NCBI RefSeq assembly: GCF_001904745.1 | Contig: NZ_MRCD01000039.1 | Span: forward strand, 1-64,000 | Direction of reading: 5' to 3' | Origin: Calothrix sp. HK-06 | GTDB lineage: Bacteria > Cyanobacteriota > Cyanobacteriia > Cyanobacteriales > Nostocaceae | DNA: 64,000 nt | In this document: positions 33,174 through 49,580 of the stretch, piece by piece | Layout of the letters: each line of letters starts with the position of its first letter | Numbering within the stretch: position 1 is the stretch's first letter | Notes under the pieces: generated by a model | The model's database searches: none | The model's input: the letters and a program-made list of their open reading frames with translations, nothing else | Told to the model about the DNA's origin: nothing | Translations under genes and position numbers: made by a program

Positions 33174-33559
33174 TGGGGGCGGAGGGACTTGAACCCTCAC
33201 GACCGTTTAAGGTCAACGGATTTTCATCCTTTTGTAGCTTTCACTACTACCAACTTTGAATCAACTGTAGGTTTTAAGGATTGGACTCTCCCTTTACCCT
33301 CGGCTTAACGTTAGGGTAGCTCCCGTCGAGTCTCTGCACCTTCCAATCAGTTAGGAGTTAAGAGTTACGAGTTAAGAGTTAAAAACACTCAGCACGACTA
33401 CTCTGCACTTTTTACTTTCTTTGGCTTGGCTCAGGATTGCCATATCTATAAAAATATAGAATTAGGTTTCCCTGAATTTGAGAGCTTACACTTGAAGGAT
33501 TTCTCACAGCAAGGCTCAGTTGTCTAAGTCCGTAGCGTCTACCATTCCGCCACGCCCCC
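33174..33559 (-). tRNA. trnL-UAA: tRNA-Leu(UAA) interrupted by a group I intron
   Basis: The 5' exon (33559 to 33526) begins GGGGGCGTGGCGGAATGG and ends ACGGACTT. The 3' exon (33224 to 33174) is AAAATCCGT, the long variable arm GTTGACCTTAAACGGTC, then GAGGGTTCAAGTCCCTC and CGCCCCCA. Joined, they make a normal class II leucine tRNA: 7-base acceptor stem GGGGGCG/CGCCCCC, anticodon loop CTTAAAA with UAA. No CCA is encoded. The intron sits between U34 and A35, the classic site for cyanobacterial and chloroplast trnL introns. Confidence 0.96.
33225..33525 (-). other. Group I intron in tRNA-Leu(UAA)
   Basis: 301 bases. It begins AGACAACTGAGCCTTGC and ends with the expected G after CAAAAGGAT. Core elements seen on the minus strand are AATTCAGGGAAACCTAA (P/Q region), CAATCCTGAGCCAAGCC (P3-P4-P5 part) and GGTGCAGAGACTCGACGGGA (R/S/P7 region). 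An extra AT-rich stem region in the middle carries repeated heptamers of the GAGTTAA/TAACTCT type (33350-33385), where P6b length repeats are known in Nostoc. It contains no homing-endonuclease frame and should self-splice. Confidence 0.9.
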
Positions 33560-36142: not shown

Positions 36143-36969
36143 ACATTTGTCTAGCACAATTAACAATTAGTTATGGGACTTGGAATAAAAGTGATAATCA
36201 TTGCTTATTTTTATATTTATCACTAATATTCTTCGTCCCTTTTGATTTATGACACTTCATGCGGTTAACTATTGGCTGTTAGCTAAAAGCTAATGGCTAG
36301 AAGTTGATAGACAGCCGCTCACAGTATACAGTATTTTACTATTAGCTTGAGTCCTACATAAAGTCGTTACAAGTTTGCGTGGACAGTTTTTCAACTGTCT
36401 TTTAAGTATTTAATACTTGTTCAAACGTTATGTCTATATAACTTTGTATCAATTTTAATATTATACTTGATTAAAATATATCGATTAAGTAGTTATTTAA
36501 AATGCGAACTACAGTATTATAAGATACTTGCATTCTGCTGATACTGAGGATTTCATTAATTAGTTATTCAATCACATTTATTACGGTGCCGCAAAATAGA
36601 TTAAGCACTTATCAAATATTTACTACAAGTAAAAAACGTAGTATTATAAATATATAATAAAGCATTGACGCTTTGCTTCAATGCTGAAATTACCCATTGA
36701 AGCATCATAACTTTTATAAGTACTGTACTTCTTGAATACGAGCAATAGAAATCTGCGTTTCTGACCAAAAAGTAATTTTATTTTATTGCTCGACTTTAAA
36801 GACAAATCTCCACTAATTCCTTCTATGTCTCAGGATATATCGTATAAAATAACACATATACTCCCAAGGAAGTATATACGGATAAATCTGCACGTGGCAA
36901 TATAAGAAAAAATACTGAACAATTTTTCATCACCCTGATTGCTTATGGTTCATTTCTGGGTAATATTAC

Positions 36970-37077
36970 TTAAGTGTTACCTTTAGCTTTTAGGGATTCG
37001 GCTGCATCGACTAAAGTGTTGTGACTCGGATAAGCCTCCATGAGTTCTAGGTAGCGACAGACATCATGATTATTCAT
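36970..37077 (-). CDS. Possible small protein of 35 residues
   Basis: An ATG at 37077 opens a frame for MNNHDVCRYLELMEAYPSHN, then TLVDAAESLKAKGNT and a stop. The composition is protein-like, with an amphipathic helix and a balanced set of charged residues, in a region otherwise without coding character. It could be a genuine microprotein or the end of a decayed gene. No family is recognised. Confidence 0.3.
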   Translation of the reverse strand: MNNHDVCRYLELMEAYPSHNTLVDAAESLKAKGNT

Positions 37078-37581
37078 GATTAAAATATGCGCGGATATGT
37101 TTTTTTTACCGGAACATAATAATCCAAGAATGCGTCTGCGCTTTTTGAACAGTATATTTTATGAACGTGTTCTATATCCTCACACAGAGATCAAAGCAAG
37201 CTCTTTCGTAGAAGAGCGAAGATATCATCAACACAGCAGCAGTAATCGTTGCTTCATACGAAGCTGTTGATGTTGTTGAAAATTATAGTGACTGTTGTAC
37301 ATTTGTTGAATAAATTCAGCTCAATTTGATATGCTTGCTAGCTTTTACTGTTAGCAAGTAATACAACTGTCTCTATATGCTTCCACTTTTTTTGTTATTC
37401 CTAAAGAGAGATTGCAAAGATAATTAAAATAAAGCAAAAATTGCCGTAAAAATGTCAACTATATTGTGAGGATGGATAGAATGAGCGATAATGTGCCTTA
37501 ATAGAAAAAATTTTTACAAACAATTTAAAGGAAAATGCATCCTTTTTTTACGCCTGTAAGCATTTAACTATCAAAAATTTT

Positions 37582-37607
37582 AGCTTTACTCCCCCATGAG
37601 TAAAGCT
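37582..37607. promoter_or_regulatory. Hairpin about 90 bases before the surface operon
   Basis: AGCTTTACTC and GAGTAAAGCT are perfect 10-base inverted repeats around a 6-base loop. The position just upstream of the first surface gene could make it part of the 5' untranslated leader or an operator. No T-run follows on the plus strand. The role is inferred from place only. Confidence 0.4.
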
Positions 37608-37698
37608 TTGATAACCAATCGAAGTATCGAACGGTTTTTGAATTTAATTGAAAGCCTTGATTTAAAGTAAATCCAATTCTATTAGTTGATGCCTAACA

Positions 37699-38634
37699 AT
37701 GACATCTATATTATCGTGGTTGAGGCGTAAGCACCTCTTTTTTACAGTTTTTACACTCAGTATATTTACTTACGGAATTATCCCTAGTTCTGCCCAAACT
37801 GAAATACCAAATACTGCGCGTGTAGGCGCCGACAATATCCCCGAAACACCAAATGGTAGGGTTGTTGAATCAAACTCCGTTGTAGTTCGAGCATCTTCAG
37901 CAGCGTTAGAAATTATCAAGACTGGAGACCGCGCGGCTGCTGAACCAGGTGATACTATTATTTACCGACTCGCAATTAGAAACACGGGTACAGTTGCAGC
38001 AAGAAATATTACGGTTACAGATAGGCTGCCCCTAGGACTAATATTTGTTCCCAGGTCAATACGAGGTAGCATTGGCGACCGAACCGTGAGGGTAGATCCA
38101 AGTAGTGGTAATCGCGGTACAGTGACACTTAGTACATCTGAACAGCTTCAACCAAACCAATCATTGAATATTTCCTACGCAGTAGAAGTAACACCTGATG
38201 CGGTGCGTGGCACGGGAAGAAACCTTGCACAAGCGCGCGCGGGCAACTTAACGAGTAATCAAGCGAGTCATACATTGCGTGTGCGCGCTGGCATTGTATC
38301 AGACTGTGCTACTTTAATTGGGCGCGTGTTTGTCGATAAAAACTTTGATGGAGAACAACAACGGAACGAACCTGGAGTGCCAAATGCAGTAATTTACATG
38401 GATGATGGTAACCGAATTGTCACAGATGCTAACGGTTTGTACTCATTAGCAAATGTCGTTTCTGGGTATCGCTCGGCAACGCTTGATTTGACAAGCTTGC
38501 CCGGTTACGCTTTGGCGCCTAATAATTATTTTATTGAAAGAAACAGTCAGTCACGAATGGTAAGACTAGCGCCAGGTAGTATGGCACGAGTTAATTTTGC
38601 AGTTACGCCAGCGTTTTCAGAGGGTAAACGATGA
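37699..38634 (+). CDS. Exported DUF11 / SdrD-like domain protein
   Basis: 311 residues. A signal peptide (about 1-33, cut near SSAQ) leads to a DUF11 Ig-like domain (about 65-190: EIIKTGDRAAAEPGDTIIYR, AARNITVTDRLPLGL) and a SdrD-B/Cna-B-like domain (about 205-305: LIGRVFVDKNFDGEQQRNEP, TDANGLYSLANV). Such domains form adhesive or structural stalks on cell surfaces. It is the first gene of the cluster; its TGA overlaps the next ATG (ATGA), implying translational coupling with the giant barrel gene. It could be the passenger or a periplasmic partner of that barrel. Confidence 0.8.
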   Translation: MTSILSWLRRKHLFFTVFTLSIFTYGIIPSSAQTEIPNTARVGADNIPETPNGRVVESNSVVVRASSAALEIIKTGDRAAAEPGDTIIYRLAIRNTGTVAARNITVTDRLPLGLIFVPRSIRGSIGDRTVRVDPSSGNRGTVTLSTSEQLQPNQSLNISYAVEVTPDAVRGTGRNLAQARAGNLTSNQASHTLRVRAGIVSDCATLIGRVFVDKNFDGEQQRNEPGVPNAVIYMDDGNRIVTDANGLYSLANVVSGYRSATLDLTSLPGYALAPNNYFIERNSQSRMVRLAPGSMARVNFAVTPAFSEGKR

Positions 38635-41600
38635 AAACAAAATTAGAAAAACCAAATTCAGAAGCGAATATTCCTAATAAATTGCAGCTGAATCACTACG
38701 TATGTCAAGGGGTCAAGACCCCACACATGATAAGCTCCGCAGGCTCTTCAGCTTTACGTTACGCCCTACAAAAGGCAATATCCGTCAGAGGTAACGCAGT
38801 CGTCCCTTTCCTTGCTGCTATTTTTATACCTTCGTTGAGTATTTTTAGTACATTGGCACCAAAAGCACAAGCAGCAACTTTAACGGCGCCATCACAAACA
38901 ACGACAGAAGATAATGTTAGCTCTACTCTAATAGCCGAAGCCGAAGAAGGAACAACACCAGCGAGCGGACAAGGAAGCAGTAATTTAACGAATCCTACAT
39001 TTAACAATCCGATAATTCCTTCTTCCACCCCAACTGCACCAAACCCGGAAAGTTCTGTACAAAATTCTCAACCTAATTCTTCAGCACAACAAGTTAATCA
39101 ACAACAAACGCAACCAACTGCTTTACCCCAAGGACTTACTGCCCAAAAAGTTAAGTTAGATATTGCACCAGCAGGAGACCCACGAGCGCAAGCAGATGGA
39201 CGTTCGACAATTAGGTTACGTGGGACATTAACCGACGAAAAAGGTCAGCCCATTACAGGTGATGTACTTGTAACATTAACCAGTAGTGCTGGTAAATTTG
39301 TTGGCGCCGACCAAAGTCGTGATGCTTCTGGTTTCCAAGTTATCGCACGTGATGGGGAATTTACCGCCACACTACAAACGGATATAAAACCCCAACAAGT
39401 GCGGGTTCGGGCAGCAGTTGATAAAATTCGAGTCAGAGATAACGCGCGCATTTCTCCCAGAGTTGACCAACTTGACCCTCGAATAGTCGGCCCACGCTCG
39501 GATGATTTTTTCCCACAGCAAAACGACACCACAATATTAAATAGCACCATTGACTCACCGTTAGAGGCTTATACCCAAGTTGAGTTTGTGACGTTTTTAC
39601 GTCCTTCACTCGCTACAGGTATTATCAACCTACGAATTGGTGCGGGTGGTACCGATTATTGGGGTAGTTTTAGTGATTTTCTTAGCCCTAGTAGAATTGA
39701 CGATGGAACAACGGTAGATTTTAAAGCTTCGGTATTTGCCACGGGTAAAGTTGGCGAATGGTTATTCACTGGAGCATTTAATAGCTATCGTCCCATTAAC
39801 CAAGATTGCGAAGGCAGAAACAGATTATTTGGCAGTATTCAGTTTTGCGAACAGCAATATCCTGTTTACGGTGATAGTTCGACGATGATTCCGACTACAC
39901 CGTCTATTGATAGTGTTTACGCAAAATTTGAACGAACTCCATCAATACCAGGCGCCGAACCTGATTATTTGATGTGGGGTGACTATAATACAGAAGAATT
40001 TTCCCGCATTTCACAGTTATATACAGCGACAACACGACAATTGCACGGTTTGAAGTTGAACTACAACTTTGGACCATTGCAAGTCACGGGGATGTACGCG
40101 AATAACATTGAAGGATTCCAACGTGATACTTTTGTACCTAATGGTACGAGCGGAAATTACTTCTTGTCGCGGCGCTTACTTGTACCAGGAAGTGAAACTG
40201 TATATGTTGAAGCTGAAGAAATAAATCGTCCCGGTACAGTAGTTGAGCGTCAACCTTTATATAGAGATTTAGACTACGAAATCGATTACGACCGAGGTAC
40301 ATTACTATTCCGGCGCCCAATATTAGCCACTGATTTAAACCCGTTTGGTACAACTTTAGTACGAAGAGTAGTTGTTTCGTATCAAAACGAAGGTGGTCAA
40401 GACTCTAACCTTTACGCTGGAAGAATTCAATATAACTTCTCGAATGACTTAGAAAGGAAATCATTTTTAGCAGGAAGTTATTTGCGTGAAGACCAAGGAG
40501 ATAATGACTTTGAACTTTACGGCGCCGACTTTTTAGTTTCACTTGGTAACGTTGGCAAAATTATCGGTGAAATAGCACGCTCGAATAGCGATTTAATAAC
40601 CGGAGATAACGTTAGCGGGAATGCGTACAGACTCGAAGCTAACTTAAACTTTGGTGAAAGAGTTTTAGGTGAAGGTTATTACAGAGCAGTAGAACCTAAC
40701 TTTGTCAACAATGCTACGACTAGTTTTTCACCTGGACAGACTCGTTACGGAGCATCGGTATTGGCTAGAGCGACTTCCACTACTAGCTTCCGGCTTTCTT
40801 ATGACTTTGAAGAGAACTATGGTACTGCACCCGGTCGTGTTGTAGACTACTTCGACTTATTCAACCCGCAACCCCTGGCACGTCCTGGTGAAAGAATTAG
40901 TAACGAACTAAGAACTTTCCGCGCTGGTATTTTACAACGCTTTGGTACTAGTCGATTAAGTCCAGAAGGAAGTGTGGAATATGTGAATCGTTCTCGTGAA
41001 GACAGAGTAAATAATACTCTTAGCGGTGATGCAAATCAACTAGTATCACGTCTGAAAGTACCTTTAGGAGAATCATTACTATTCCAAGCACAGAACGAAC
41101 TCAATATTGATGGCAATGACCCGCTATATCCAAACAGAACCACGCTGGGATTAGATTGGAGAGCATATCAAGGAGTGACATTCCGGTTAGCGCATCAATT
41201 CTATGACAGTAGCGAATTACTTCAAGGTAACTCGATAACTACTTTTGACACGATACTTGACCATAAGTTCTCTGAAAACACTGCAATTACAGGACGTTAT
41301 TCAGTACTGAGTGCATATAACGGACTTCAAGGACAAGGCGCCGTTGGACTAAATAACAAGTGGGTACTGGCGCCTGGTTTGCGGATGAGTGTCGGTTACG
41401 AATACGTTTTCCGAAATCTTTTCAACGCTACTGCTGCTGGACCTCGTTACGAGCAATACTATACAGTTGGACAAACCGCATCCTCCCTAGGGTTATTTTC
41501 TGGTTCAGTTTATAGCCTTGGTCTTGAGTATACCGATAATCCAAATTTCCAAGCTAGTACTCGATTTGAATATCGTGATGGCGACGAAAGCAATAACCTT

Positions 41601-42926
41601 GTAATTTCTGCTTCTGCGGCAGGTAAAATTTCGCCAGCATTAACGGCTTTAGTTAGATATCAACAAGCAGGGGAAGCAAACGTATTTTTACCAACCTCTT
41701 CCAGCATTGGTGGTACTGATGGCGTTAGATTCCAAGACCTCGGTGATACCTCAAACCTAAGAATTGGTTTAGCATATCGCGACCCAACAAACGATAAATT
41801 TAACGCCTTATTCAAATACGAATGGCGCCAAAATTTTGACTCCATACCCGAAACACAACTAATTGGTTCCACAGTAACTGGTCATGTACTTTCAATGGAA
41901 GGTATTTATGCACCTGACTGGCGTTGGGAATTTTTTGGTAAGTTTGCACTACGTAACGGTGTAACTTTTGCTTCAGGCGATAGATTTGATGGTACAGCGA
42001 AATTAGCCCAACTACGCGCAACATATCGTTTAGGTTATCGTACCGATTTAGCTGTAGAAGGTCGCTGGATTGGTCAAGATTCAAACAGTAACAACAGCTA
42101 CACCGAGTATGGTTTAGCAGTTGAAAGCGGTTATTATTTAACACCCGATTTACGATTAGCAGCAGGTTACAGTTTTGGTAGCGTCGATGTTAACGGTGAT
42201 AGAGACTTTTCGGGTTATCGTTCCGAAGGTGGCTTTTATGTTAACGTCAGCTTGAAACTCAACGAACTGTTAGGTGGATTTGGGTTACAAAAACCCGTAC
42301 CTAAACAGCAACAAGAATCAGTAGTTCAACCAGTTTCAGCGGTAAATCAAACACCTCCTAACCCGTTCCCAGTTAATCCAAATAACGAGGTTCAACCTCA
42401 AACAACACCTCAAACAACACTAGCACCTGGTAATCAGTCAAACACACCCAATATACAGTCGAATACTGAGCCAACATCAACTTCGACTCCTAGTACTTCC
42501 AGGATTGAACAGCAACCACAACAGCAAGAACAGGGAATTAACAAAACTGATTCATTATTAAACCCAAATCAGCAAAGTGAGTTGAAGCAGCCAACAGATG
42601 TTCAATCTTTCGTAAATCAACGCACAAATGATTTTGGCGAACCCCAAGAAATAGCTACAAATAATCAGTTGACGAGTGAAAACGCATGGTTCCAACCTCA
42701 AAAGGATATAAATAATCAAAATATCCATTTGGAGGAGCAAAATGTAGTTTCATATCCAGCACACTCGGAAAATCAACTAGGAATTAAAACCCTAGTACCA
42801 ACTAATAAATCGGGGCAACAGCAGCTTCTAGACAAACTCAGAAAATTTACCAAAGCGCCAATTGACTTCAACCAGTCTTTAAACGCTGTTACTGTTCAAG
42901 GTGTAGAGGAGAGGAGTAAGGATTAA
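38631..42926 (+). CDS. Giant outer-membrane beta-barrel with Ig-like domain
   Basis: 1431 residues. An unusually long N-terminus (81 residues) ends with a signal-type stretch and AQAA. A Gln/Pro/Asn-rich linker (90-165) leads to an invasin-type Ig domain (about 172-275: GRSTIRLRGTLTDEKGQPIT). From about 300 to 1220 the sequence alternates short amphipathic strands and loops with many aromatic residues (YRLGYRTDLAVEGRWIG, GFYVNVSLKLNELLGGFG), as in large outer-membrane barrels. A 210-residue disordered Gln/Asn tail follows, unusual because barrels normally end in a last strand. No TonB box or plug domain was seen. It could be an usher-like or adhesin-export pore; this is inferred. Confidence 0.7.
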   Translation: MKTKLEKPNSEANIPNKLQLNHYVCQGVKTPHMISSAGSSALRYALQKAISVRGNAVVPFLAAIFIPSLSIFSTLAPKAQAATLTAPSQTTTEDNVSSTLIAEAEEGTTPASGQGSSNLTNPTFNNPIIPSSTPTAPNPESSVQNSQPNSSAQQVNQQQTQPTALPQGLTAQKVKLDIAPAGDPRAQADGRSTIRLRGTLTDEKGQPITGDVLVTLTSSAGKFVGADQSRDASGFQVIARDGEFTATLQTDIKPQQVRVRAAVDKIRVRDNARISPRVDQLDPRIVGPRSDDFFPQQNDTTILNSTIDSPLEAYTQVEFVTFLRPSLATGIINLRIGAGGTDYWGSFSDFLSPSRIDDGTTVDFKASVFATGKVGEWLFTGAFNSYRPINQDCEGRNRLFGSIQFCEQQYPVYGDSSTMIPTTPSIDSVYAKFERTPSIPGAEPDYLMWGDYNTEEFSRISQLYTATTRQLHGLKLNYNFGPLQVTGMYANNIEGFQRDTFVPNGTSGNYFLSRRLLVPGSETVYVEAEEINRPGTVVERQPLYRDLDYEIDYDRGTLLFRRPILATDLNPFGTTLVRRVVVSYQNEGGQDSNLYAGRIQYNFSNDLERKSFLAGSYLREDQGDNDFELYGADFLVSLGNVGKIIGEIARSNSDLITGDNVSGNAYRLEANLNFGERVLGEGYYRAVEPNFVNNATTSFSPGQTRYGASVLARATSTTSFRLSYDFEENYGTAPGRVVDYFDLFNPQPLARPGERISNELRTFRAGILQRFGTSRLSPEGSVEYVNRSREDRVNNTLSGDANQLVSRLKVPLGESLLFQAQNELNIDGNDPLYPNRTTLGLDWRAYQGVTFRLAHQFYDSSELLQGNSITTFDTILDHKFSENTAITGRYSVLSAYNGLQGQGAVGLNNKWVLAPGLRMSVGYEYVFRNLFNATAAGPRYEQYYTVGQTASSLGLFSGSVYSLGLEYTDNPNFQASTRFEYRDGDESNNLVISASAAGKISPALTALVRYQQAGEANVFLPTSSSIGGTDGVRFQDLGDTSNLRIGLAYRDPTNDKFNALFKYEWRQNFDSIPETQLIGSTVTGHVLSMEGIYAPDWRWEFFGKFALRNGVTFASGDRFDGTAKLAQLRATYRLGYRTDLAVEGRWIGQDSNSNNSYTEYGLAVESGYYLTPDLRLAAGYSFGSVDVNGDRDFSGYRSEGGFYVNVSLKLNELLGGFGLQKPVPKQQQESVVQPVSAVNQTPPNPFPVNPNNEVQPQTTPQTTLAPGNQSNTPNIQSNTEPTSTSTPSTSRIEQQPQQQEQGINKTDSLLNPNQQSELKQPTDVQSFVNQRTNDFGEPQEIATNNQLTSENAWFQPQKDINNQNIHLEEQNVVSYPAHSENQLGIKTLVPTNKSGQQQLLDKLRKFTKAPIDFNQSLNAVTVQGVEERSKD

Positions 42927-45316
42927 TGGAAGAATTTAAACATTATTGGTCAAAACAGAGGAGTAAAAAAAAGGAAAAAGGGAAAAGGAAATTAACTTTA
43001 TTACCCTTTACCGCTTACCCTTTACCCCTTACTTTGCTGGCTTTAAGTTTGTCTTTACTACCATCAAATGTTGCATTTAGTCAACAAAATGGTGGTAATA
43101 GTAATAAAAATAATATTGCCCAGCAATCAACTCCGGCGCCTGCGAATACACCAATCCCGACTCCGGCACTGCGAATAATAGTAAATAGCAACCAAGACGG
43201 CAATGTTCAGCAAGATAACCAATTAACATTACGCGAAGCAGTTGAACTAGTTAACGGGACGCTAAAAGTAGAGCAACTTAGTCCTGCGGAAAAAGCACTT
43301 GTTACACCTTCGACATCTGGGGGTTCCAGGATTGAGTTTAATTTGCCAGCAGGCGCCACTACAATTCAGCTGCAAAGAATATTACCTGACTTAGCATCTC
43401 CTAATTTAGTCATTGATGGTACAAGCCAACCAGGTTATGATGCGACAAAATCCGCGACAGCGGAAATTGCAATTCCTGTACCAGTTGTTGCCATAACTCC
43501 GGCGCCTAATATTGAAATTTTCCGTGGGTTTACAATAGTTGCCGACGCTATAACAGTGCGTGGGTTAAGTTTATATGGATTTAATGCAAGTCCTATTAAA
43601 CAGCAATTGGGAAATTTACTTATATATGACGGTATTCCCAAACCTGTGACACTAACCACACCACCTGGAAATATCGTTATTGCCCATAGATTTCCACCAC
43701 CCGACACAAGTAAGCAACAACCTACACCCAGTAATAATTTCCCATTCTCTAATAAAGATGTTCCACCCAAAAATGTTGTTATTGAAGATAACTGGTTAGG
43801 GTTGACAGTTAATGAACAAATACCCCAAGAAACCTCAGCGTTTGGGGTTTATGTGTTTAACTCACAGGGTACAACAATTCGCCGCAACCGTATTTATTAC
43901 AGCGATGGTAGCGCAATTATTACTTCTGTACGTGGTGAAAATACTTTAGTAACGCAAAACATTATTGTGGGTAATGGTTTGGCTGGAATGCCAGACGCTT
44001 TACGATTTGAGGGAATTGTCACAAATTCCCAAATTACAGGCAACTTAATTTGTGCGAATGACGGTGCGGGTGTGTATCTATTTAAACCCGACGGGAATGT
44101 ATTGCTGCAAAACAATAAAATTACCTACAACGGCAGGCGCCTGCGAAGGGCAGCAGTATATTTAATGGGTAGTAACCATCAAGTTATTGGTAACGAGATT
44201 GATAATCAAACCGGGCCAGGGGTAAGCGTCACATCATTTCCACGTAACGATATTGGTAGCAGTAGTCCTGCGGTTCGCAATATTATTCGTGGTAATAGAT
44301 TTGCCTCGCTTGAAGGATTAAGTATCGACTTAATTACCCAGCAAAATCTTGAAGTTAGCGACTTTCAACGTGGAGACGGCGCCAACCCCAAACGTAACTC
44401 TGGCAACCGTCGTCTAGATACCGGAAACGGTGCAGTAAATGCGCCCGAATTTAGAACGCGCGCTTTTGCTCCCTCTGCAACATCTGTCACAGTTCAAGGT
44501 AAAGCTGACCCAGGTTCTGAGGTAACAATTTATAAGATAAGCGATTATCAACGTGGCAAACAAGCTATATACGACTATGGCTACGGCGCCTTAAATGTTC
44601 CATTAGCAACTGTCCAAGCCGATAAAGACGGTAACTTTAGTACCACTATTGCGAACGTTGCCGAGGGAGATGGAATTAGCGCCATTGCTACTGACCCCAA
44701 ATATGGAACATCAGAACCATCAGTAGCAGCGGTGATTGGTCAAGCCGGAACTTTTCCAAATCTCAACCCGAATTCGCGTCCGCAACCAATAGTACCTCCG
44801 CAGTGTACATCACGACCGAAACCACCCGAACCACCACCACCACCACCCCCACCACCACCACCACCACCATTAAAGATTCGTGTACCGCGTAATATCCACT
44901 TCGCGCTAGACAAATCGTTTATTAGTCCAGCTTCTGCACAAGTTTTGGATAGGGTGGCAGAAGTGTTGCTGCAAAATCCAGTAATTGTAATTGATATTGT
45001 TGGGCACACTGACCCACGTGCAAGTGACGCATATAACTTGGCACTAGGTAGACGGCGGGCATTAGCAACACGTGCTTATTTATTGCGTAAAGGTGTGGCG
45101 CCTGAGCGTATGACCATACGTTCAGTGGGTGAATCACAACTTCTTAACCCAGGAAGTACAGATATTGTGGACTACGCAAGAGACAGACGCGCGGAAATTA
45201 TCTTTAAAGATATTCGAGGAGTAGACATCATTATCGAACCACAAGAAGACGATTTACAAATCGAACAACGAAGACAAAATCAAACACAACCCGCGCGTCG
45301 TCCCCGTAGAAGGTGA
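42926..45316 (+). CDS. CSLREA/beta-helix protein with poly-proline linker and OmpA domain
   Basis: 796 residues. A basic N-terminus and signal segment (cut near AFSQ, about 52) precede a CSLREA-type start (NQLTLREAVELVNG), a right-handed parallel beta-helix (about 185-480, NosD/pectate-lyase-like rungs such as TTIRRNRIYYSDGSAIITS), an Ig-like unit (about 500-600), a run of prolines (about 635-648) and a C-terminal OmpA/MotB domain (about 655-775: DIVGHTDPRASDAYNLALGR, RRALATRAYLLRKG) that binds peptidoglycan. Its ATG overlaps the previous stop (TAATG). The layout suggests a wall-anchored surface stalk with the helix exposed. Confidence 0.8.
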   Translation: MEEFKHYWSKQRSKKKEKGKRKLTLLPFTAYPLPLTLLALSLSLLPSNVAFSQQNGGNSNKNNIAQQSTPAPANTPIPTPALRIIVNSNQDGNVQQDNQLTLREAVELVNGTLKVEQLSPAEKALVTPSTSGGSRIEFNLPAGATTIQLQRILPDLASPNLVIDGTSQPGYDATKSATAEIAIPVPVVAITPAPNIEIFRGFTIVADAITVRGLSLYGFNASPIKQQLGNLLIYDGIPKPVTLTTPPGNIVIAHRFPPPDTSKQQPTPSNNFPFSNKDVPPKNVVIEDNWLGLTVNEQIPQETSAFGVYVFNSQGTTIRRNRIYYSDGSAIITSVRGENTLVTQNIIVGNGLAGMPDALRFEGIVTNSQITGNLICANDGAGVYLFKPDGNVLLQNNKITYNGRRLRRAAVYLMGSNHQVIGNEIDNQTGPGVSVTSFPRNDIGSSSPAVRNIIRGNRFASLEGLSIDLITQQNLEVSDFQRGDGANPKRNSGNRRLDTGNGAVNAPEFRTRAFAPSATSVTVQGKADPGSEVTIYKISDYQRGKQAIYDYGYGALNVPLATVQADKDGNFSTTIANVAEGDGISAIATDPKYGTSEPSVAAVIGQAGTFPNLNPNSRPQPIVPPQCTSRPKPPEPPPPPPPPPPPPPLKIRVPRNIHFALDKSFISPASAQVLDRVAEVLLQNPVIVIDIVGHTDPRASDAYNLALGRRRALATRAYLLRKGVAPERMTIRSVGESQLLNPGSTDIVDYARDRRAEIIFKDIRGVDIIIEPQEDDLQIEQRRQNQTQPARRPRRR

Positions 45317-45331
45317 AAATAAAAATAATGA

Positions 45332-45362
45332 TGTAGAGACGCTCACATGTAACGTCTCTACA
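45332..45362. repeat. GTAGAGACG...CGTCTCTAC hairpin, copy 3
   Basis: Arms TGTAGAGACG and CGTCTCTACA with an 11-base loop, 16 bases after the OmpA-protein stop codon. It belongs to the family at 8826-8855 and may act as a transcript end or attenuator inside the surface cluster. Confidence 0.75.
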
Positions 45363-45402
45363 TTGCAAACAAAATTGTGTGTTGTCTATAGGACTGAGGA
45401 AC

Positions 45403-47028
45403 ATGAAAGCTTTTCTTAAACGAACCTTATTAATGTTTAATAGCGGCTTGCATCGTTCAGCGGAGCAACCTCTCAAAGTCAATCGAAAATGGCAAAAAGT
45501 TCTTAAGTCTCTACGTTATTATTTTCTTGCTTTATTGCTAGCAGTAACGCAAATAGTTTTTTCTGGAGGTATGGTTAAACAAAAAGTAATAGCACAAACT
45601 CAAAATTTATGTCCTGCGGGGGATGTTCCTACACCTGTTAACTGGACACCAGCAGTTGGGGCGCCTGCTATTGCCGCTCAAACAATTCAGGTTGGTGAAG
45701 TGGGTGTAAGTTTCAGTTTTGAAGAAAGTCTGCAACAGCAAGTTATAGATAATGGGGAAACTCTTATCAGTAATGAAACCTATGGTGGTATACCCGGTCC
45801 TAACTTACGCTTTAATATTGGTCAAGATAAAACTCCGTCACCTGGAAACGCGACTCTAAGTATAAACTTTTCTAGACCCGTAATAATTGCATCTCCTTTA
45901 ACTCTTCTTGATGTAGACCGCAATGGCGAACGCGATACGGTAGGCGGTACGGCATTTATTTACCAAGATAGAGTGACAGTTAGTGCATTTAATGGTGATG
46001 TTCCTGTAGGAGTCGCTTTAAGGTCACTTACTCCTAATACTCGTGTGACAGGAAACACCGTTGTAGGTACTATCGAAAATTCTGAACGAGAGCGACCAGA
46101 CTCGAATGTTTCGGTGACACCTGTAGGTCAATTAAATCGCATAGACTTTCTTTACGAACCTGGTACGGAGTTTGGTCAACCTTTACAGGATGAAACTGTT
46201 GGTTTGGCTCAATTTAGTATTTGTCTTCCACCTCCTCCAGGCGCCACTATTGGCGATACTGTATTCAACGACCGTAACAGCAACGGTAGACAAGATGAGG
46301 GAGAACCGGGCATTGCGAACGTAACCTTGATATTACGGAACTCGCGCGGTCAAGAGGTTCGTCGAACAACGACAAATAACAACGGTATTTATAGTTTTAT
46401 AAATTTACCGTTAGGCAATTATACAGTTCAAGCGAATCGACCTAATGATGATTTTAACCCGACGACGGAAACGACTTTGGCTGTACGTCTCACAGAGCCA
46501 AATCAAGAGTTACTGACTGTTGATTTTGGGTTTAATACAAATCGTCTGGGTAGTGCGGGGGCGCCAAATATTCGTCTAATTAAGCGAATTACCAACGCAA
46601 TACGCAATAATCAGACAATTAGTGGTACTGATTTTACCACCTTTGTTGCAGACCCCAACAATAACAATGATGATGACTTACCATCACCAGAACGTTTTCG
46701 AGGTGTTTCGACGTTAGAGGCGCCTATACAGTCACGAGATGAAATTGAATATACGGTTTATTTTTTGACTGAAGGTGATGGAATCGTCAACAATGCTCGC
46801 TTCTGCGACTTAGTTCCAAACGGAACTACGTTTGTCAACAATACTATTAGCATCAATGGTGCAGGTAGCGGCGCCGATGCTGGTAGATATTTAACACCGC
46901 TTGCACCATTAGAAGCATTCACATCGATTTGTCCTGCCAGTAACAATAACGGAGCCGTGGTTGCAAATTTAGGAAACATACCTAGTGGTAATTTTGGTTC
47001 TGTACGCTTCCGCGTCGCAGTAAATTAG
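45403..47028 (+). CDS. Exported SdrD-like protein, tandem paralogue A
   Basis: 541 residues. A long basic N-terminus and a membrane/signal segment (about 45-70) precede a globular N-domain (CPAGDVPTPVNWTPAVGAPA to about 285), a SdrD-B-like domain (about 285-390: TIGDTVFNDRNSNGRQDEGE, TTTNNNGIYSFINLPLGNYT) with Ca-binding-like DRNxNGxxD, and a C-terminal DUF11-like domain (about 395-541: EIEYTVYFLTEGDG, FCDLVPNGTTFVNN). The ATG at 45403 has GAGGA just before it. It is clearly homologous along its length to the next gene. Confidence 0.8.
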   Translation: MKAFLKRTLLMFNSGLHRSAEQPLKVNRKWQKVLKSLRYYFLALLLAVTQIVFSGGMVKQKVIAQTQNLCPAGDVPTPVNWTPAVGAPAIAAQTIQVGEVGVSFSFEESLQQQVIDNGETLISNETYGGIPGPNLRFNIGQDKTPSPGNATLSINFSRPVIIASPLTLLDVDRNGERDTVGGTAFIYQDRVTVSAFNGDVPVGVALRSLTPNTRVTGNTVVGTIENSERERPDSNVSVTPVGQLNRIDFLYEPGTEFGQPLQDETVGLAQFSICLPPPPGATIGDTVFNDRNSNGRQDEGEPGIANVTLILRNSRGQEVRRTTTNNNGIYSFINLPLGNYTVQANRPNDDFNPTTETTLAVRLTEPNQELLTVDFGFNTNRLGSAGAPNIRLIKRITNAIRNNQTISGTDFTTFVADPNNNNDDDLPSPERFRGVSTLEAPIQSRDEIEYTVYFLTEGDGIVNNARFCDLVPNGTTFVNNTISINGAGSGADAGRYLTPLAPLEAFTSICPASNNNGAVVANLGNIPSGNFGSVRFRVAVN

Positions 47029-47039
47029 TTAATTTATAG

Positions 47040-47065
47040 GCGCGATTAGTCGCGTCTCCTTTTTC
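47040..47065 (+). terminator. Terminator-like hairpin between the paralogues
   Basis: CGCGATTAGTCGCG forms a short GC stem about 12 bases after the stop codon, followed by TCTCCTTTTTC. It could end the transcript of paralogue A. Confidence 0.5.
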
Positions 47066-47183
47066 TAAATTATTCTATCGTTAATAAAAAATAAAGGAAT
47101 TACGAATAAGTAATTAAAAAATATTAACTAAATATTAACTCTCTTTCTTTATATTTTTAATTGATTAACTAGGAAACAAAACA

Positions 47184-48836
47184 ATGAAACCTGTTGTTAA
47201 ATTATTGAAACTAATAAGAGCAATGTTTAATATAAAATTCCAAAGGTTACTTTTATATGCCACAACAAATAATCGAAGGGTACGAAAAATTATTAAACCT
47301 CTTCGATATTTTTTTCTAATATTAATGATGGCAGTAACACAAATAGCCATTTTTGGGACTGTGCCTAACCAAAAAGTGGCAGCTCAAAGTTCAGGTGTTT
47401 GTCCAGCAGGTACAGCACCAACAATTGTTAACTGGCAACCAGCAGTTGGTGTAGAAGCAATTGCTGCCCAAAATCTTAACGCTGGTGGGGTAAAAGTCAG
47501 GTTAAGTTTTACAGAAAGCGCTCCAGGACAAGTTATCGAATCAAATTTAGTCGATTTTAACAATGAAATTTACGGAACTCGAATCGATAACGCTGTCTAT
47601 GGTGGTTTACCTGGACCAAACTTAAGATTTCATATTGGTATTGGTAAAGCACCTGCACCAGTTGGTAGTAATGCGACTTTAACTGTAAATTTCGATAGAC
47701 CCGTTACGCTTGCATCTCCTTTAACTGTTCTTGACGTAGACCGAGATGGCGCCAGGGATTTTGGATTTACCTACCAAGATAGAGTGACAGTTAGTGCATT
47801 TAATGGTAATAACGCTGTTAGCGTTGCACTCCAGTCACTTGGTAGTACAACTCGCGTGACAGGAAGTACAGCAGTAGGTATCAATGAGAATTCTTTACCA
47901 AGTAGACCGGATGGTAATGTGTCTGTTACACCTGCTGGTCAAGTAACTAGCTTTCAACTTCTGTATGAACCTGGTACCGAATTTGGTCAACCTCGACAAG
48001 ACGAAACAATAGGTCTTGCTAGGATAAATATTTGTGCCCCCTCGAATACTGGTTCGATAGGTGACACAGTATTTAATGACCGTAACGCTAACGGTGTTCA
48101 AGACCAAGGGGAAAGGGGTATACAAGGCGCCACCTTAATTTTACGAGGCGCCAACGGTGAAGAGATTTCTCGAACCACCACAAACAGCAATGGTATTTAT
48201 GGGTTTACTGGTTTACCAATAGGTAATTACACAGTTGAGGCACTGCGACCCAACAATGATTTTAGACCAACAACAAATACTACTCTATCTGCCAACCTAA
48301 CACAAGCAAACCCAACACTACTTAATATAGACTTTGGGTTCCGTTCGACAGCATTAGGCGCCGCAGGAACACCAAATATCCAGCTAATTAAACGAATAAC
48401 CAACGCGACACGTAGCGGGCAACCAATTACAGGTACTAATTTTAATACCTTTATACCTGACCCTAACAACAATAACGATGATTCGCTCCCAGCACCAGAA
48501 AGATTTAGAGGAGTTCCCAACTTAGAAGCACCAGTACAATCAGGTGATGAAATAGAATACACAGTTTATTTTTTGACCGAGGGAGAAGAAAACATAAGTG
48601 GTGTACGCTTCTGTGACTTAGTACCCAACGGGACTACATTTACCAGCAACAGTATTGGTATAAACGGTGCAGGTAATGGCGCCGACGGTGGTAGATTTTT
48701 ATCTCCACTCGCACCATTAGATACATTCACCAATATTTGTCCTGGCAGCAACAACAACGGCGCCGTAGTTGCGAACCTAGGTAGTGTTCCTGGTGGTCAA
48801 TTTGGGTTTGTCCGTTTCCGCGTCAGCATTAACTAA
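47184..48836 (+). CDS. Exported SdrD-like protein, tandem paralogue B
   Basis: 550 residues, same order as paralogue A: signal region (LMMAVTQIAIFGTVPNQKVA parallels VTQIVFSGGMVKQKV), N-domain from CPAGTAPTIVNWQPAVGVEA, SdrD-B domain (SIGDTVFNDRNANGVQDQGE), and DUF11-like C-terminus (EIEYTVYFLTEGEEN). The AGGAAA before the ATG is a reasonable ribosome site. The differences are mostly in the N-domain, where B has an insertion near NEIYGTRIDNAVYGG. Tandem duplication followed by divergence is the simplest origin. Confidence 0.82.
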   Translation: MKPVVKLLKLIRAMFNIKFQRLLLYATTNNRRVRKIIKPLRYFFLILMMAVTQIAIFGTVPNQKVAAQSSGVCPAGTAPTIVNWQPAVGVEAIAAQNLNAGGVKVRLSFTESAPGQVIESNLVDFNNEIYGTRIDNAVYGGLPGPNLRFHIGIGKAPAPVGSNATLTVNFDRPVTLASPLTVLDVDRDGARDFGFTYQDRVTVSAFNGNNAVSVALQSLGSTTRVTGSTAVGINENSLPSRPDGNVSVTPAGQVTSFQLLYEPGTEFGQPRQDETIGLARINICAPSNTGSIGDTVFNDRNANGVQDQGERGIQGATLILRGANGEEISRTTTNSNGIYGFTGLPIGNYTVEALRPNNDFRPTTNTTLSANLTQANPTLLNIDFGFRSTALGAAGTPNIQLIKRITNATRSGQPITGTNFNTFIPDPNNNNDDSLPAPERFRGVPNLEAPVQSGDEIEYTVYFLTEGEENISGVRFCDLVPNGTTFTSNSIGINGAGNGADGGRFLSPLAPLDTFTNICPGSNNNGAVVANLGSVPGGQFGFVRFRVSIN

Positions 48837-48838
48837 AT

Positions 48839-48867
48839 GTAGAGACCGGATATATCCGGTCTCTAAC
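48839..48867. repeat. GTAGAGACCGGA...TCCGGTCTCTAACA hairpin, copy 4
   Basis: TGTAGAGACCGGA pairs with TCCGGTCTCTA across a TATA loop, immediately after the stop codon of paralogue B. It is the shortest member of the family and a likely transcript end. Confidence 0.75.
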
Positions 48868-48926
48868 ATCTGATATATGATGTGGATGGTTTTTACCCGT
48901 CGCCGATAGATTAATTATTGATATTT

Positions 48927-49580
48927 ATGCGAAAAACTCAGAAAATTAACTTGATTGCTTCTTTAATTACTAGCGCACTTGTTTGTTCTTCGGTTTTGAT
49001 AGGTGAAAGCATTGTCCAAGCGCAACGCTCACCGCGACCAGTAGATTTACTCAGATCAACATGTGTTGCTAGTGGTTCTGGTACAGCACGTGAAGAAAAT
49101 ACAAATGTTTCAATAGGAAGGGCTGTATATTCGAGCCGATTTTTTTTGGGTTCTGGATATCGTTCTGCATCACTAACTTGTAGAATCAAGCCAGATAATA
49201 GCCCAAAACCAATTTTTCAAACATTGAATTTAGGGTTTGGGATGCGTGATAGTGATAGCCGCAGTTCAAGTGTAGATGTCAGAGTCTATTTAGACGGCAA
49301 ACCAGCAGATTCTCGTACTGTATCTCCTTCACAGCAAAATTCACTATCATTAGATGTTAGTAATGCCAGCAATGTCTCTATTGAGGCAGTTTGTAATAGC
49401 GGTTCCCAATATTGTGACCGTGTATACTTTTACGAAGCAAATCTATTTCGTCCCAATATTCAAAAGCAGTCTACATCATCTCCCCAACCCACTCAACAAT
49501 TTAATGTTCCTGGGGCGCCTACACCCGTACCACCCCCACCAACAACGGCGCCTGCCCCTGTAACTCCACAAAAATATTAA
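48927..49580 (+). CDS. Secreted protein with Pro-rich tail
   Basis: 217 residues. A signal peptide (about 1-33, cut near VQAQ) leads to a beta-rich domain with YRSASLTCRIKPDNSPKP, LGFGMRDSDSRSSSVDVRV and YLDGKPADSRTVSPSQQ, reminiscent of carbohydrate-binding NPCBM-like domains but not identified. The C-terminal 45 residues are rich in Pro, Thr and Gln (PVPPPPTTAPAPVTPQ). Four cysteines may pair. It is the last gene of the surface cluster. The ATG at 48927 is used, three codons after a TTG. Confidence 0.7.
   Translation: MRKTQKINLIASLITSALVCSSVLIGESIVQAQRSPRPVDLLRSTCVASGSGTAREENTNVSIGRAVYSSRFFLGSGYRSASLTCRIKPDNSPKPIFQTLNLGFGMRDSDSRSSSVDVRVYLDGKPADSRTVSPSQQNSLSLDVSNASNVSIEAVCNSGSQYCDRVYFYEANLFRPNIQKQSTSSPQPTQQFNVPGAPTPVPPPPTTAPAPVTPQKY

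Follow-up and report, generated by a model that had tools for sequence, protein, structure and literature searches.

The window analysed here, the whole stretch of 64,000 nucleotides from the cyanobacterium Calothrix sp. HK-06, carries six adjacent genes (A, B, C, D1, D2 and E; Table 1) that an earlier note on this DNA, made from its letters alone, had put forward as a new cell-surface assembly system. The list of open reading frames gives six intact frames between 37699 and 49580, all on the forward strand, and a signal-like hydrophobic stretch, as read from the sequence, opens each of the six proteins. A and B overlap by ATGA, and the coordinates of B and C are consistent with a TAATG overlap; frames and coordinates thus confirm the description of six exported-looking neighbours, the first three of them overlapping. 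For D1, an ATG at 45403 behind GAGGAAC is a likelier start than the GTG 24 bases ahead of it. Besides this one, the host genome (9.99 Mb) has two B genes in paralogous clusters that both lack C, and the closest named loci by best B segment, among the best 80 of 374 relatives, are those of Calothrix sp. PCC 7716 and Dulcicalothrix desertica (95%). With somewhat more belief than doubt, we read A, B, C and D as an outer-membrane platform for surface D stalks, in which B would be a giant barrel and an OmpA domain the tie to peptidoglycan.

The gene order recurs across cyanobacteria. Of 103 loci fetched, three (L075, L110, L117) were removed because layout and contig marked them as duplicates; the 100 counted still include near relatives, and neither the counts nor the Fisher value for the co-occurrence of B and D is corrected for kinship. 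Genes counted as adjacent if -150 to 400 bases lay between them, and D as present if a D-type gene stood within 4.5 kb; the D label means a best BLAST match to the D proteins of the window, L029, L030, L034, L035 or L048, loci that match themselves. A lies directly 5′ of B in 88 of the 91 loci with room for it (62 of these 88 with a 4-base overlap), the exceptions being a split barrel (L050) and two loci with an extra or broken frame in between (L101, L118). An SdrD/DUF11 D-type gene stands 3′ of B on the same strand in all 87 loci whose stretch reaches 4.5 kb past it; the shorter stretch of L047 has the D-type gene on the opposite strand. Homologues elsewhere therefore keep their neighbours, as the note's proposal of a system would have it. 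The idea of one six-gene unit fared less well: the A-B-D core is conserved, but C directly follows B in 68 of 93 loci and an E homologue is present in only 21 of 100, so a unit of all six is not supported. E, whose single family match (NPCBM) is below cut-off and which ends in a proline-rich tail, is accessory.

The association extends to whole genomes. A protein search found B in 19 of 146 genomes of the phylum, and a B profile (E up to 1e-20) found it in 35 of 292 genomes and 23 of 116 genera. A profile of the C-terminal domain of D (E up to 1e-8) matched 33 of 292 genomes, the weakest being G047 at 6.5e-9, and all 33 are among the 35 with B; we judge that the two scans covered the same 292 genomes from the equal number and from the genome handles shown, those lacking a match being listed in part. 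The two genomes with B and no D domain (G032 and G035) are incomplete (83 and 87%). For 47 of the 49 D domains a B is no more than 16 kb away, and the four found in the window's host are all inside its three B clusters. That A, B and D form a module by more than chance is well supported. The genes might instead be neighbours through inheritance alone, with no joint function, and at least one of three genes flanking the cluster in the window (34071, 34408, 35489) is indeed found in 36 of the 100 loci; yet the A-B-D set is also met with among different flanking genes, on plasmids and in proteobacteria, fusions of A to B and of B to OmpA exist, and the co-occurrence of B and D in the 292-genome sample is strict, all of which makes this reading hardly credible.

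The proposed platform hinges on B. Its only family match is to the immunoglobulin-like (Ig) families Big_1/Invasin_D3 at residues 185-266, below cut-off, and we rejected membership of a known barrel family, as Pfam, NCBIfam and PDB sequences gave only the Ig part and barrel matches with E of at least 0.3. An AlphaFold model of residues 170-1240 (61-row alignment; pLDDT 71.7, pTM 0.67) has an Ig sandwich followed by 40 strands of mean length 12; the Ig part consists of successive short strands, most of them at pLDDT 70-90, and a small inserted domain around the DYEIDYDRG motif was left out of the strand count. A second model, of a diverged homologue with a fused OmpA domain (58 rows; pLDDT 72.0, pTM 0.62), likewise has 40 strands and ends in an OmpA-like order of helices and strands. 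Among the 50 Foldseek matches listed for each model, outer-membrane barrel entries account for 50 in the case of the window's B and 47 in that of the homologue, and they include Cir, SlpA, SprA, ushers, MtrB and LptD. Strand residues alternate between two faces (z 5.9 and 5.8). Model and fold matches thus predict B to be a barrel-type protein of no particular family with about 40 strands, in keeping with the earlier note's view of the 1431-residue protein as a barrel.

The same fold matches suggest a rival in which B is an anchor and not a conduit. B would then tether the outer membrane to peptidoglycan in the manner of Deinococcus SlpA or OmpM, and D, exported by another route, would dock outside by its C-terminal domain as a coat. 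Deinococcus SlpA is a large outer-membrane barrel tied to the wall, and structures of SlpA and of the S-layer deinoxanthin-binding complex (SDBC) are among the top fold matches of both models (TM-score at most 0.24); OmpA domains accompany B in many loci; and no motor family was found among the six proteins. We nevertheless think this reading rather unlikely: B has no SLH domain match and the cluster has an OmpA-type anchor instead, some 40 strands would be more than a tether needs, and the six proteins match no other outer-membrane exporter through which D could pass.

As for the anchor of the proposed platform, C combines Beta_helix (4e-12) and NosD (2e-7) matches with an OmpA domain (8e-15) behind a proline-rich linker, and this OmpA domain matches Pal structures. 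Because C bears the OmpA domain and matches no barrel family, its beta-helix is more likely periplasmic, to judge from these matches; on the same grounds, the beta-helix as a binding tip, which the note had suggested, is unsupported. The note's OmpA wall anchor within a multi-gene surface system is supported, alongside the barrel and Ig-like stalks. We rejected the idea that OmpA always sits on C: elsewhere it is fused to B, fused to a stalk or encoded by a separate gene. It forms the C-terminus of B in seven loci (L048, L049, L136 and L143-L146), two of which (L144 and L145) also have C, and it was a profile of C-type OmpA domains that brought these B-OmpA fusions to light. Separately, the C-terminus of photosystem I subunit A2 in PDB entry 7f4v (chain aB, 872 amino acids (aa)) matches the OmpA domain of C.

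D1 and D2 both carry SdrD_B domains (4e-22 and 3e-22). Proteins of their type keep both ends and vary in length, the 47 of at least 400 aa spanning 527-2132 aa. They close with a DUF11-like domain of 130-155 residues, which TIGR01451 matches in both D1 and D2 and which has an invariant RFR near its end. A tail motif of the type FGFVRFRVxVN/D, defined after the tails were seen, stands at the C-terminus of 45 of 45 complete D1/D2-type proteins, 43 of 53 other complete D proteins and, among 582 complete frames of other kinds, just one. At its N-terminal end D gave no Pfam family above cut-off and no PDB sequence match; the D-like protein of L050 bears GEVED domains. The note's SdrD/DUF11 stalks thus stand as Ig-like stalks, but a view of D1 and D2 as mere stalks is unsupported, as their C-terminal domain is found only in B-bearing genomes among the 292 sampled. 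In the part of the literature cited here, staphylococcal SdrD_B-type domains are counted among the mechanically strongest folds (PMC6232131), a paper on Spirulina vesicles names two SdrD B-like proteins, at most candidate relatives of D (PMC11635480), and a signal-peptide paper on Synechococcus PCC 11901 places a DUF11 protein in the outer membrane by prediction, a protein not linked to A (PMC13297417). A D-type domain in a 952-aa frame (G174:C1:1232501), 1.03 Mb from the nearest B found, is a possible unlinked substrate.

A, placed directly ahead of B, has a DUF11 domain (E 7e-11) and matches TIGR01451 (2e-16); its SdrD_B match stays under the Pfam cut-off. Three of its residues, K74, D108 and N175, are identical in all 91 aligned A proteins, that of the window included. 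The sole PDB match to the A profile at E up to 0.01 is 9ifr, with whose Lys and Asp K74 and D108 align; the Asn is matched by position only, being unpaired in the alignment, and the Asp of 9ifr aligned to D108 sits 34 residues past the Lys, one more than the published 715/748 numbering gives. The DUF11 domain was renamed CLIPPER in 2025, and the cited part of that paper describes DUF11 domains as able to bear isopeptide bonds (PMC12617251). From its conserved residues, the Lys, Asp and Asn to be expected for such a bond, the DUF11 domain of A probably locks itself in this way. Two layouts of A occur, a short one as in the window (75 of 90) and a long one (15 of 90), the latter with two genes ahead of it, for a large protein (both of those scanned have DUF7925) and for a small one of DUF11 type. 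This second cluster type is that of L030, L032, L033, L036, L038-L046, L048 and L049, with DUF7925 found in the large proteins of L030 and L039; the tails shown for the large protein are mostly FQRKVN or near it, those of the small protein mostly end in QVR or KVR, and the chain stops on a strand again.

Homologues of the module extend to three classes of proteobacteria. Among plasmid records, 20 match B and 23 match a Nitratireductor barrel, the two lists overlapping; we examined 11 loci, one cyanobacterial and ten proteobacterial. A and B are carried by a plasmid of [Synechococcus] sp. NIES-970. In all ten proteobacterial loci the best A-profile match lies ahead of the barrel, in the C-terminal part of a long chain immediately 5′ of it in eight and in the barrel chain itself in two, where A is fused to B (Acinetobacter L132 and Pacificitalea L142). 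The A match covers both DUF11 and SdrD parts in seven loci (in two pieces in L139) and stops early in the SdrD part in L133, L137 and L140. OmpA is found at the C-terminus of the stalk (Croceibacterium L140), at the N-terminus of the barrel (Eleftheria) or as a separate gene behind the barrel (Acinetobacter and Vibrio), and the Acinetobacter locus has the cyanobacterial order: DUF11 protein, A-B, OmpA, DUF11 protein. Eight of the ten barrels end in a strand resembling a beta-signal, with F, Y or L as the last residue.

Some of these barrels are filed under other names: those on alphaproteobacterial plasmids are annotated as TonB-dependent receptors (L133, L135, L141) or as hypothetical proteins (L134, L139). 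If the first name were roughly right, B would be a channel through which a polymer is taken up, C would act as a binding protein by its beta-helix, and D would be the arm that captures at the surface. Such names, the presence of a beta-helix in C and the TonB-dependent receptors among the fold matches all point that way, and a conserved transporter or enzyme could lie nearby, the annotation having covered the cluster genes. However, a domain scan found no plug or TonB-receptor domain in the window's B or in the seven proteobacterial barrels scanned (L132, L135, L137, L138 and L140-L142; those of L133, L134 and L139 lay outside the scan), so that the two TonB-named barrels scanned, L135 and L141, have no TonB-receptor domain, and 25 of 93 loci have no C behind B. 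We regard an uptake channel as improbable.

From the observed gene order, fusions, co-occurrence, domain identities and proteobacterial homologues, taken together with a barrel and strand number that are predictions, we infer for the outer-membrane platform the following topology, route of D and docking, along with signal peptides, peptidoglycan binding and any energy source. B would span the outer membrane as a giant barrel, some 40 strands in number, and its Ig domain would lie in the periplasm; A, a small adaptor of a DUF11 and a highly conserved SdrD-type domain, would work where B opens to the periplasm. Known proteins use OmpA domains to bind peptidoglycan, and both ends of an even-stranded barrel lie in the periplasm; because of these two facts, the A, Ig and OmpA parts found fused to B would make up a base on the inner side of the membrane. 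This base would be tied to peptidoglycan by the OmpA domain, which C carries here and B or the stalk elsewhere. D would cross the inner membrane by means of its signal peptide and reach the surface N-terminus first, most likely via B, which would be the simplest route because the barrel is large and no other exporter is found among the six proteins. D would then be held by its C-terminal DUF11-like domain with its final FGFVRFRVxVN/D-type strand, a natural place of attachment since a variable stalk lies in front and a fixed end behind, and the SdrD repeats would set the length of the stalk.

Several observations weigh against this reading. Neither C nor another OmpA match appears in the fetched stretch of 30 of the 103 loci, some of these stretches being truncated, and the host's two other B clusters are among the 30, so OmpA anchoring is not universal. 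Two of the 49 D domains are unlinked to a B: in G174 the distance is 1.03 Mb, and in G278 the domain is on a different contig. The tail of D may be conserved merely through homology of D domains, for which reason it is not independent evidence. The strands of Ig domains alternate as well (z 3.0), which makes alternation weak support for a barrel; TM-scores of the B models to known barrels are at most 0.22 by query length, and of the 50 matches listed for the second model three, two to ApoB100 and one to a glucuronidase, are to proteins from outside the outer membrane. Most alignment rows are common to both models, which are therefore not independent, and with moderate confidence, common rows and low TM-scores, closure of the predicted barrel and its exact strand number are unproven. 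Lastly, the six proteins offer no candidate for an outward drive of D, as none of them matches a motor, chaperone or plug family (Pfam, E up to 1).

Comparison with known systems bears on what kind of platform this might be. Substrates of the type IX secretion system (T9SS) carry a C-terminal sorting domain, to which the C-terminal domain of D may be likened. Both systems feature a giant outer-membrane barrel, with 36 strands in SprA and a predicted 40 or so in B; the part of a 2020 review cited here gives SprA an inner diameter of about 7 nm and calls it the largest such barrel (PMC7463736). B profiles found no SprA chain among PDB sequences at E up to 1 and 5, and the likeness is one of fold only (TM-score at most 0.16). 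A sorting domain of the TIGR04183 type scored E 0.089 in D1 (12.8 bits against a cut-off of 23, and inside an SdrD domain) and gave no match in D2; other T9SS families were not found in the six proteins, bar a generic OmpA-domain match to PorE. The chaperone-usher pili (PapC, FimD) likewise use an outer-membrane barrel that exports Ig-like subunits, and ushers are among the fold matches, but Pfam, searched to E 1, gave no usher or PapD-type chaperone family for any of the six, and the strand number of ushers is far below that predicted for B. Inverse autotransporters (intimin, invasin) resemble B in that a single chain combines a barrel with an Ig domain of the Big_1/Invasin_D3 type; their N-terminal barrel has 12 strands and the Ig passenger comes behind it, whereas in B the Ig domain stands ahead of about 40 in both models and the presumed passenger is a separate protein. 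The defining features that we tested of T9SS, usher, TonB receptor and inverse autotransporter are thus absent, although the module may work like the first two. Only tentatively do we go further, to a secretion and anchoring system of its own kind, common to cyanobacteria and proteobacteria, in which a single-chain barrel larger than SprA would export Ig stalks with a dedicated C-terminal sorting domain that closes in an RFRV-type strand, domains locked by isopeptide bonds and domains stiffened by calcium would act as a ratchet by folding outside, and an OmpA base would leave a stalk running from wall to surface through the pore.

Transcription of the cluster may be divided. Terminator-like hairpins lie between C and D1, between D1 and D2 (47038-47057) and after D2 (48840-48865), in a region with 22 hairpin-type sites against 12.3 (sd 5.4) in shuffles. 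Given these hairpins, A-B-C may be the tight operon, a limit that is itself uncertain because the longest D1 frame overlaps C by 4 bases in L052 and L060. We doubt that all six genes form one operon, because hairpins separate C, D1, D2 and E from one another and because few loci have E. The first and last hairpins share a palindrome of the GAGAC/GTCTC type, known as a dispersed repeat in cyanobacteria. A promoter scan gave no excess (32 matches against 31.9 in shuffles). The 1.56 kb 5′ of A (36143-37698) contain no frame of 100 aa and no Rfam match at E up to 0.1, and many relatives that share the flank genes keep a gap of about 1.3-2.8 kb ahead of A. Farther upstream, at 33265-33535 on the reverse strand, is a group I intron (RF00028, 73.8 bits). 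Cyanobacterial group I introns of this type often split tRNA-Leu(UAA); ARAGORN reported no tRNA in the window.

Table 1. Features of the cluster, with positions in the window.
Feature	Position	Strand	Basis
Gene A, exported DUF11 + SdrD-type adaptor (putative), 311 aa	37699..38634	+	Open frame, domain matches, conservation of K74, D108 and N175
DUF11 (CLIPPER) domain of A	37906..38274	+	Domain match; A profile against PDB 9ifr
Gene B, 1431 aa, predicted giant barrel of the outer membrane, overlapping A by ATGA	38631..42926	+	
Ig (Big_1/Invasin_D3-like) domain of B, ahead of barrel	39183..39428	+	Matches below Pfam cut-offs; model
Predicted barrel region of B, about 40 strands, residues 311-1210	39561..42260	+	Two models, alternating strands
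DYEIDYDRGTLLF motif, conserved insert of B	40272..40310	+	Several alignment columns invariant or nearly so; served as search peptide
Gene C, beta-helix and C-terminal OmpA domain, 796 aa, start on stop codon of B	42926..45316	+	
OmpA (peptidoglycan-binding type) domain of C	44900..45166	+	E 8e-15; matches Pal structures
Hairpin between C and D1	45331..45363	.	Hairpin scan
Gene D1, SdrD stalk protein	45403..47028	+	Frame (549 aa) opens at GTG 45379
C-terminal DUF11-like domain of D1, end VRFRVAVN	46558..47025	+	
Gene D2, SdrD stalk protein, 550 aa, paralogue of D1 (63% identical)	47184..48836	+	
C-terminal DUF11-like domain of D2, end VRFRVSIN	48366..48833	+	
Gene E, secreted Pro-tailed protein, accessory, 220 aa	48918..49580	+	Homologue in 21 of 100 loci

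A close published counterpart is B9T28_05395 of Acinetobacter silvestris, described in 2025 as a DUF11 (CLIPPER) fibrillar adhesin ending in OmpA (PMC12617251). It shares with our cluster a DUF11 stalk and an OmpA anchor, and its solved domain, 9ifr, is the one that the A profile matches. It differs in that the cited part of the paper describes an adhesin without an outer-membrane partner, whereas here an adhesin-type chain, an adaptor, a barrel and an anchor come as a set of genes. This adhesin looks like one half of the A-B-C-D module. The DUF11/SdrD stalk of OmpA-anchored fibrillar adhesins is present in the window; OmpA on the adhesin chain itself is not, being on C and not on D, and is seen in Croceibacterium L140. 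The novelty that the earlier note proposed holds only as far as the open-licence PMC papers among the matches listed, in which the gene set is undescribed; DUF11/CLIPPER and an OmpA-ended DUF11 adhesin are already in print in that 2025 paper.

Outer-membrane platforms for surface fibres are a known kind already; if our reading is true, this one would equip bacterial surfaces with fibres by a route not yet described and would account for the carriage and holding of DUF11/SdrD surface proteins in many diderm bacteria. Barrels now filed as TonB-dependent receptors or hypothetical proteins would gain a function, B would be a candidate for an outer-membrane barrel that exceeds SprA in size within a single chain, and substrates could be sought by using the C-terminal domain of D as a marker. 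Fibre building by filamentous cyanobacteria would then become directly testable in mutants.

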